64,000 nucleotides of DNA from Betaproteobacteria bacterium (GTDB taxonomy: Bacteria > Pseudomonadota > Gammaproteobacteria > Burkholderiales > CAIKXV01), in contig CANGXU010000004.1 of NCBI GenBank assembly GCA_947457885.1, positions 1 through 64,000 of the forward strand. Direction: 5' to 3'. Below, in pieces: positions 2,840 to 7,476 of the stretch (positions are counted from its first letter, which is position 1; the number at the start of each line of letters is the position of its first letter). Position numbers and translations under genes: made by a program. The notes under the pieces were generated by a model. The model worked only from the letters and a program-made list of their open reading frames with translations. It did not search any database and was not told the DNA's origin.

Positions 2840-3769
2840 TCAGACGGGGCGATCGACTACTGGCTCGAACGGCCTCGGACGATAGCCGAAGTCGCGTTGC
2901 GCATCGCCATGGTCGAACACCATGTCCTTGGCCATCCGACGCGCCATCTCGATGTTGAAGTCACGGTAGCGCGGGACGCACGACAGGCACCAGAGTGCGA
3001 GGCCGACGGCAACCACCGGCACCGGCAGCCATCGCGGTGGACGGCCTACGGCCTGGAAGATCCTCAGCACCAACTCTCGGTAGGACAGCACCTCGCTGCC
3101 GGACAGGTCGTAGGCACGCCCTTCACTGCCCGGGCTGGCCAGCGCCGACACGCAGGCGGCGGCAAGGTCGTCCGCATGCACCGGCTGCCGCAGACCTGCG
3201 CCACCGCCCACCAGCGGGAACACCCCGAAGCGCCGGATCGCCGCCGCGATAACCATCACGTTACGGTCGAGACCGGCACCGTAGATCAGGGTCGGCCGGA
3301 ACAGCGTCCAGCCGATGCCAGCCGCCGTGCAGCTGCGCGCAAGCCCGGTCTCGCCGGCCTCGAGATCCGCGACGATGCGCTGCTCCCTCGGATGGGTCGA
3401 GCCGGCTTTCGTGAAACGGCTGGTGGAGCCGAATGCGATCACCCGGCGGAGGGCAGGCGAACGGGCGGACTCAAGCTGCCTTGGCACCAGCCTCAAGGGG
3501 CCAAGGTGAATCCACGAGTCGCACCCTTCAGTCCAGCCAGCATCGAGCGAGTGCTCCAGGTCGGCCTGGATCCAGCGCGCCGCGCCATGCCCCACCCAGC
3601 GCTCGCCGAAGGAAGCCACCGCCTGAGCCTCCGGTCGGCGCGAGACCGCGATCACGCGGAAGCCCGCCGCCGCCAGGCGTGGCAGCAGAAAGAAACCGAC
3701 CTGGCTCGCGGCGCCCGTGACCACGACCGATCCCCGTGGCGAAAGAGCCGGCAGCGCGGGCAGATTCAT
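2840..3769 (-). CDS. NAD(P)-binding epimerase/dehydratase-like extended SDR, atypical active site
   Basis: A 309-residue Rossmann-fold protein. The N-terminal strand and loop VVVTGAASQVGFFLLPRL is the dinucleotide site, but the middle glycine of TGxxGxxG is Ser. Downstream RPTLIYGAGLDRN and HADDLAAACVSAL match extended SDRs of the epimerase/NDUFA9 kind. The catalytic YxxxK is not seen: where it should fall the sequence reads HPREQRIVADLE. The C-terminal part has a hydrophobic stretch (PVPVVAVGLALWCLSC) that may touch the membrane. It lies 3' to 5' upstream of the channel gene on the same strand, with about 28 bases to the channel stop. Function could be binding or regulatory rather than catalytic. 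Confidence 0.75.
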   Translation of the reverse strand: MNLPALPALSPRGSVVVTGAASQVGFFLLPRLAAAGFRVIAVSRRPEAQAVASFGERWVGHGAARWIQADLEHSLDAGWTEGCDSWIHLGPLRLVPRQLESARSPALRRVIAFGSTSRFTKAGSTHPREQRIVADLEAGETGLARSCTAAGIGWTLFRPTLIYGAGLDRNVMVIAAAIRRFGVFPLVGGGAGLRQPVHADDLAAACVSALASPGSEGRAYDLSGSEVLSYRELVLRIFQAVGRPPRWLPVPVVAVGLALWCLSCVPRYRDFNIEMARRMAKDMVFDHGDAQRDFGYRPRPFEPVVDRPV

Positions 3770-3797
3770 GCCCGAACACCAGCGCGGCGCGGGTGCT

Positions 3798-4610
3798 TCA
3801 CGGTTTCCTCGCAGACAGCGCGGCCTCGACGCGCGCCAGCGCCTCGCGCGCGGCGCGCAATTCGTCGAGCAATGGCGCGTCGCCGTCAGCTGCGGCCTCG
3901 CGACCCGCGTCGGCCGCCTCGATCGCCTTGCTCTCCTCCAGGCTGTTGATGACGACCGCGATGAACAGATTGATCATGACGAACGTGCCGATGATCACGA
4001 ACGAGATGAAGTAGACCCACGCCCAGGGCGCCGTCTCCATCGCGGCATACATCACCTCGGCCCACCCCTCCAGCGTCGCAATCTGGAAGAGAGTAAGCAG
4101 CGCAGCCCCCAGCGTGCCCCAGCGCTCCGGATCCGTGCCATGGAACAGATGGTAGCCGGCCACTGCATAGATGTAGAACAGCAGCGCCACCAGCATCAGC
4201 ACATGCCCCATGCCCGGCAGCGCATGGACCAGTGTGGCCACCACCAGCCGCAGCTTGGGCACCGCCGAAACCAGCCGCAGCACACGCAGCAGCCGCACCA
4301 TCCGCGCGATCATCGCGAGTTCGCCGGAGAATGGCAGAAGGGACAGCGCCACGATGGTGAAGTCGAACAGGTTCCAGCCGTCGCCGAAGTAGCGGCGCCA
4401 TGCAGGCGCGACGGCAGCGAGCTTCAAGCCGACCTCGGCGACGAATGCAGCGAGGATCAGGTGGTGCACCCATTCGATCGTGCGGCCGGCGTGTGCGACG
4501 ACGGTCGTCGAGGTCTCCAGGCCGACCAGCACTCCGTTGAGCACGATCAGCGCAATGATCAGGCGCTCGAAGCGCCGGTCGCCGACGATGCGGCGGGCCA
4601 TCAGGTTCAT
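3798..4610 (-). CDS. Single-domain voltage-gated cation channel (NaChBac/BacNav family)
   Basis: A 270-residue inner-membrane channel expected to form a homotetramer. Four hydrophobic helices (S1-S4) come first; S4 carries Arg103, 106, 109 and 112 at three-residue steps, the voltage-sensing pattern. The pore helix TLFQIATLEGWAE puts the filter T179-L-E-G-W-A-E185 where NaChBac has TLESWAS. S6 reads FVMINLFIAVVINSLEE and is followed by a charged helix (about 224-267) that could be the C-terminal coiled coil. I chose the ATG at 4610 (MNLMARR), with AAGGAAG upstream; longer starts add an untypical tail. The gene stands alone downstream of clpB. The Gly after the filter Glu raises the question of Ca2+ permeation (see findings). 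Confidence 0.9.
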   Translation of the reverse strand: MNLMARRIVGDRRFERLIIALIVLNGVLVGLETSTTVVAHAGRTIEWVHHLILAAFVAEVGLKLAAVAPAWRRYFGDGWNLFDFTIVALSLLPFSGELAMIARMVRLLRVLRLVSAVPKLRLVVATLVHALPGMGHVLMLVALLFYIYAVAGYHLFHGTDPERWGTLGAALLTLFQIATLEGWAEVMYAAMETAPWAWVYFISFVIIGTFVMINLFIAVVINSLEESKAIEAADAGREAAADGDAPLLDELRAAREALARVEAALSARKP

Positions 4611-4699
4611 CGGGAGGGCAACTTCCTTGTCGGGTCGGACTTGCGTGCGCCATGCGCCGCTCGACGACCGCGGTACCGACCGGCTCCGGAACGGACATG

Positions 4700-4733
4700 C
4701 TCCGTCCGGGGAATATACCGGGTCCGGACGGAG
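4700..4733. promoter_or_regulatory. Perfect 10-bp inverted repeat upstream of the channel gene
   Basis: CTCCGTCCGG at 4700-4709 is repeated as its exact reverse complement at 4724-4733, with a 14-base A/T-richer loop. On the minus strand the loop holds TATATT (4712-4717), a good -10 hexamer about 100 bases before the channel start. No T-run follows in either direction, so this is less likely a terminator for clpB than an operator or a leader hairpin. Confidence 0.4.
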
Positions 4734-4856
4734 ATGAAGGCCGGCACAACCCTTTTGCAGGTGCTTTTGCTTGTCCCTCATAAGCCGGAAAGCGAACCGT
4801 ACCGAACGTGCTCCTGGCGGACGACGATCCCTGAAAATCCGTTGCCGCGCCTTCGA

Positions 4857-7442
<2,586 letters not shown>

Positions 7443-7476
7443 GGGGTTGGGCCCTCCGTTTTCTCGTCTTAGAGCA

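Follow-up and report, generated by a model that had tools for sequence, protein, structure and literature searches.

Does the one-domain voltage-gated channel encoded in the window (the whole stretch of 64,000 nucleotides analysed here) prefer Ca2+ over Na+? The question comes from its selectivity filter, TLEGWAE, in which a Gly directly follows the filter Glu. The features needed to answer it are the following.

3798..4610 (including the stop codon), minus strand: one-domain voltage-gated cation channel of 270 aa, assigned to the AnclNav type; translation, Pfam and predicted structure
4056..4076, minus strand: selectivity filter TLEGWAE, residues 179-185; translation
4275..4304, minus strand: S4 gating arginines R103, R106, R109 and R112; invariant in 62 homologues
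4083..4085, minus strand: P1-helix Gln176, position -3 from Thr179, equivalent to NavAb Gln172; alignment
3801..3932, minus strand: C-terminal tail, part of a continuous predicted helix from S6 (197-268); AlphaFold2 model
4857..7442, minus strand: clpB, conserved upstream neighbour; genus synteny
2840..3769, minus strand: NAD-dependent epimerase-family gene, conserved neighbour 28 bases downstream; genus synteny

Translation of the window puts the filter (T179, L180, E181, G182, W183, A184, E185) exactly at 4056-4076 in the 270-residue channel, as the initial annotation had it. The four correctly spaced S4 arginines that it described are confirmed as well: S4 reads ARMVRLLRVLRL, with an Arg every three residues at 103, 106, 109 and 112, and all four are invariant among the 62 aligned sequences, as are the S2/S3 acidic residues E59 and D83. 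The 270-aa protein matches Pfam Ion_trans (8e-49) and has the features of the BacNav superfamily, namely a six-helix Ion_trans fold, the S4 Arg repeat, a pore loop and S6; an NCBIfam search returned only a weak TRP match, below the cut-off. There is a longer in-frame ORF of 327 aa that begins at an ATG at 4781, and the alignment of relatives starts at residue 1 of the 270-aa form, not of the 327-aa ORF. A scan for promoters and terminators around the channel gene found none. Antisense to the channel gene and clpB runs a 1251-aa open frame (window 3717-7472, plus strand), which the high G+C content of the coding DNA most likely explains. The source genome (4.03 Mb in 289 contigs) contains no other clear homologue of the channel.

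The AlphaFold2 monomer, modelled with a pLDDT of 88.6, follows the six-helix plan, with the filter flanked by the P1 and P2 helices and with S6 running into the tail as a single long helix. Its top PDB matches are CavAb, NavAb and NavMs, with a TM of about 0.7-0.85 depending on the normalisation. From this model, the C-terminal tail is probably the coiled coil of a presumed tetramer.

The filter is a constant property of the genus. Each of the 11 genus genomes carries one TLEGWAE channel, 74-95% identical to the window channel, and pairwise comparisons of these orthologues give dN of 0.03-0.20 against dS of 0.18-0.90, for a dN/dS of about 0.1-0.28. All seven filter residues are invariant in the genus, yet their codons differ synonymously at six positions, all but that of Trp, for which a single codon exists. 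The presence in 11/11 genomes, the low dN/dS and the synonymous codon change together argue that the TLEGWAE filter is not there by chance, and the channel gene is under purifying selection. The most conserved parts are P1-filter-P2 (22/29 positions) and S5 (23/33), and the least conserved is the tail (7/44). Wherever genus contigs reach, clpB, the epimerase-family gene and an MFS gene keep the same arrangement around the channel. One member of the genus (G004) encodes an additional NavAb-like channel with filter TLESWSM (L092) alongside the TLEGWAE one. A record titled Bordetella parapertussis (L002) is a metagenome bin whose channel and ClpB match those of the genus at 94% and 97%, so its species label looks wrong. 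That the protein forms no functional channel, or one that gates outside the cell's voltage range, would have a precedent in the earlier tests in Sf9 cells, where 2 of 4 AnclNavs gave no detectable current (PMC7041947). Given the purifying selection, and the invariance of the S4 arginines and of E59 and D83, we regard this as very improbable.

The initial annotation took the Gly after the filter Glu (filter position 4, Gly4) as the ground for Ca2+ selectivity. In the CavMr and NavPp background this stands. CavMr from Meiothermus ruber (TLEGWVD) has a PCa/PNa of 218, which becomes 11.9 in the G4S mutant and 7.7 in G4D; NavPp (TLEDWTD) goes from 0.31 to 41 with the D4G mutation, and to 215 when it bears the CavMr filter (PMC7041947). 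The mechanism proposed for Gly4, derived from Cav1.1, is a wider entrance above the Glu ring (PMC7041947), and a 2023 "beacon" review gives the same rule for one-domain channels, a Gly after the filter Glu/Asp (PMC10120453). In NavAb the rule breaks down: NavAb-S178G (TLEGWSM) has a PCa/PNa below 0.01 and is still Na+/Li+ selective (PMC12919392), so Gly4 alone is insufficient for Ca2+ selectivity. The charge of Glu185 at position 7, also offered in favour of Ca2+, turns out to be a weak argument, since CavMr-D7M keeps a PCa/PNa of 144 (PMC7041947).

Because Gly4 has opposite effects in the AnclNav and NavAb backgrounds, trees were computed without the filter columns. The TLEGWAE channels form a single clade (support 99/99), and the window channel lies within a clade of 59 sequences, mostly TLEDWTD (100/100), separate from the NavAb-like sequences. 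In these trees the TLEDWTD homologues, which have exactly the filter of NavPp, stand in for it, as CavMr and NavPp themselves are not in the tree; the Bacillus group consists of one Bacillota TLESWAS sequence only, whose placement is unsure. The segment after the filter (P2) lacks one residue relative to the NaChBac-like homologues and to most of the NavAb-like ones, and in the FQVITLEGWVDIMY/FQIATLEGWAEVMY alignment with human Cav3 domain I the P2 of the window channel aligns without gaps, with equal filter-P2 length. By clade and by P2 length we assign the channel to the AnclNav type, a placement made through the TLEDWTD stand-ins and not through CavMr or NavPp themselves. The Ca2+ reading thus survives on better grounds, as tree and P2 place the channel in the background where Gly4 works, and the comparison originally drawn with NaChBac is less apt than one with NavPp and CavMr. 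An ordinary BacNav-type Na+-selective channel in which the Gly is neutral would be in line with NavAb-S178G and with the fact that the characterised one-domain bacterial channels are mostly Na+ channels. We find it improbable for a channel that lies outside the NavAb-like clade and has an acidic residue rather than Met at position 7, the more so as Gly4 in an AnclNav background gave Ca2+ selectivity.

The degree of the preference is a separate matter. Among the features that mark CavMr, Gly4 is present; Val at position 6 is absent, with Ala184 in its place, which lowers the likeness and does not exclude it; and the disulfide-bearing L6 extension reported for CavMr (PMC10120453) is absent, the window channel showing neither a Cys nor an insertion behind P2 in the alignment. 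Replacing Val by Thr in CavMr (V6T) reduces PCa/PNa from 218 to 40, and in both CavMr-V6T and NavPp-D4G, at a PCa/PNa of about 40, monovalents are no longer separated (PK/PNa 0.7-0.8) (PMC7041947). In NavAb, small changes near position 7 in the M181A mutants result in non-selective channels, and Gln172 is named in a network with Met181 (PMC12919392). The window channel, whose position 6 is not Val, might by the same token be weakly selective or non-selective and pass Ca2+ and monovalent cations alike. We consider this unlikely, while giving it real weight: Ala is small and non-polar as Val is, unlike Thr, and Ala6 is invariant in the genus. A preference for Ca2+ is our best reading, of uncertain degree owing to the Ala at position 6 and the missing L6 extension. 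We would expect a PCa/PNa well above 1 and, with Ala in place of Val, perhaps below the value for CavMr.

The window channel, then, is probably a voltage-gated, Ca2+-preferring homotetramer of the AnclNav group, a proposal in which we have fair but far from full confidence. The analysis itself shows the sequence, fold, conservation and placement of the channel; assembly, gating, preference and role are inferred. On depolarisation the four S4 arginines would move and the pore would open. The Glu181 ring followed by Gly182 would then provide a wider entrance that admits hydrated Ca2+, favouring it over Na+, as proposed for CavMr. The role may be Ca2+ entry on depolarisation, perhaps coupled to motility. 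All 11 genus genomes have flagellin genes, and a role in motility is possible, with no tie between those genes and the channel. EF-hand_7 proteins are nearly absent across the genus genomes, which leaves the role without backing from an obvious Ca2+ sensor. Na_Ca_ex transporters, found in 9 of the 11 genomes, were considered as support and set aside as uninformative because the family is near universal in controls.

The homologues show a variety of filters, whose frequencies are not population values because sampling was skewed towards the window protein. TLEDWTD is the commonest. Other Burkholderiales (L023, L155-L158) have TLEGWVD/E, the CavMr filter or near it, and a further Burkholderiales family has TLEAWTD. 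Kangiella has TLEGWTE/Q/K, and its Gly4 speaks against a simple freshwater rule, an idea taken from isolate names. Verrucomicrobiota genomes have TLEGWAD, TLEGWID and TLDNWGD, and the NavAb-like clade includes TLEGWGD/E, TLEGWSE and TVEGWPD. Plasmid relatives are distant only, with TLESWSM in those with a readable filter. Gly4 recurs in several lineages, NavAb-like channels included: a quick method counts at least 8 changes between Gly4 and the rest on a 90-row tree in which several forks are unsupported. A single Gly4 origin in the betaproteobacterial channels is neither rejected (AU p 0.18) nor recovered in the tree.

Several of these homologues are unusual. L100 and L106 (Burkholderiales, family f46) belong to the NavAb-like clade and have filters TLEGWGD and TLEGWGE with a shortened P2. 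Here Gly4 together with an acidic residue at position 7 is convergent, in a background regarded as Na+-selective. A phylum search around the Verrucomicrobiota genome of L076 brought up TLDNWGD/TLDNWSD channels with Asp at the selectivity position and Asn next to it (L180, L182, L183, L184), and others with a long insertion following P2 (L185, L193, L194, L197, L201). L143-L148 (Burkholderiales, family f18, genomes of 1.6-2.1 Mb) are very divergent, with TFEDWTD or TFDNWID.

Position -3 of P1 is Arg in nearly all channels with Asp4 (79/79 in one set), and Gln in Gly4 channels, the window channel included, except Kangiella. As a statistical coupling, Arg(-3)/Asp4 did not hold up in an independent-pair test on the tree (4 pairs only, p 0.25-1); since significance is lost when shared ancestry is taken into account, we treat it as conjecture. 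In a wider scenario, the Gly4 Ca2+-type filter would be the older state in this AnclNav branch and the Na+-type TLEDWTD derived, with the P1 Arg(-3) offsetting the acidic filter. Many bacteria would then have Ca2+ channels, and selectivity would have switched repeatedly, also within the NavAb-like group (TLEGWGD/E). We think this scenario doubtful; one tree in which TLEDWTD is nested among Gly/Ala4 lineages, with support of only 76/21, leaves room for Gly4 as the older state.

According to a 2026 paper, CavMr is the sole identified prokaryotic Cav (PMC12919392). The window channel is an ordinary member of a known, thinly studied group, and a useful candidate for a second natural one. Being genus-wide and without the L6 extension of CavMr, such a second, independent candidate would tell whether the AnclNav background needs more than Gly4 for Ca2+ selectivity, and whether bacterial voltage-gated Ca2+ entry exceeds a one-species curiosity. 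The recurrent Gly4 channels, those of the NavAb-like clade included, are natural test cases for selectivity switching.

Among known systems, the window channel resembles CavMr in having one domain and a TLEGW filter with an acidic position 7; it differs at position 6, where Ala replaces Val, and at position 7, where Glu replaces Asp, and it lacks both Cys and the L6 extension. NavPp of Plesiocystis pacifica, an AnclNav that prefers Na+ and is blocked by Ca2+, has the filter of the nearest large sister group, with Asp4, Thr6 and Asp7 where the window channel has Gly4, Ala6 and Glu7. The canonical BacNavs NavAb, NavMs and NaChBac have the fold and the S4 pattern in common with the window channel, but their filters are TLESWSM/TLESWAS, they fall in another clade, and P2 is one residue longer in the NavAb-like and NaChBac-like homologues. 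With domain I of human Cav3 (T-type), FQVITLEGWVDIMY aligns without a gap onto FQIATLEGWAEVMY; Cav3 is a four-domain channel of 24 TM with an EEDD filter, whereas the window channel would be built from four identical subunits.
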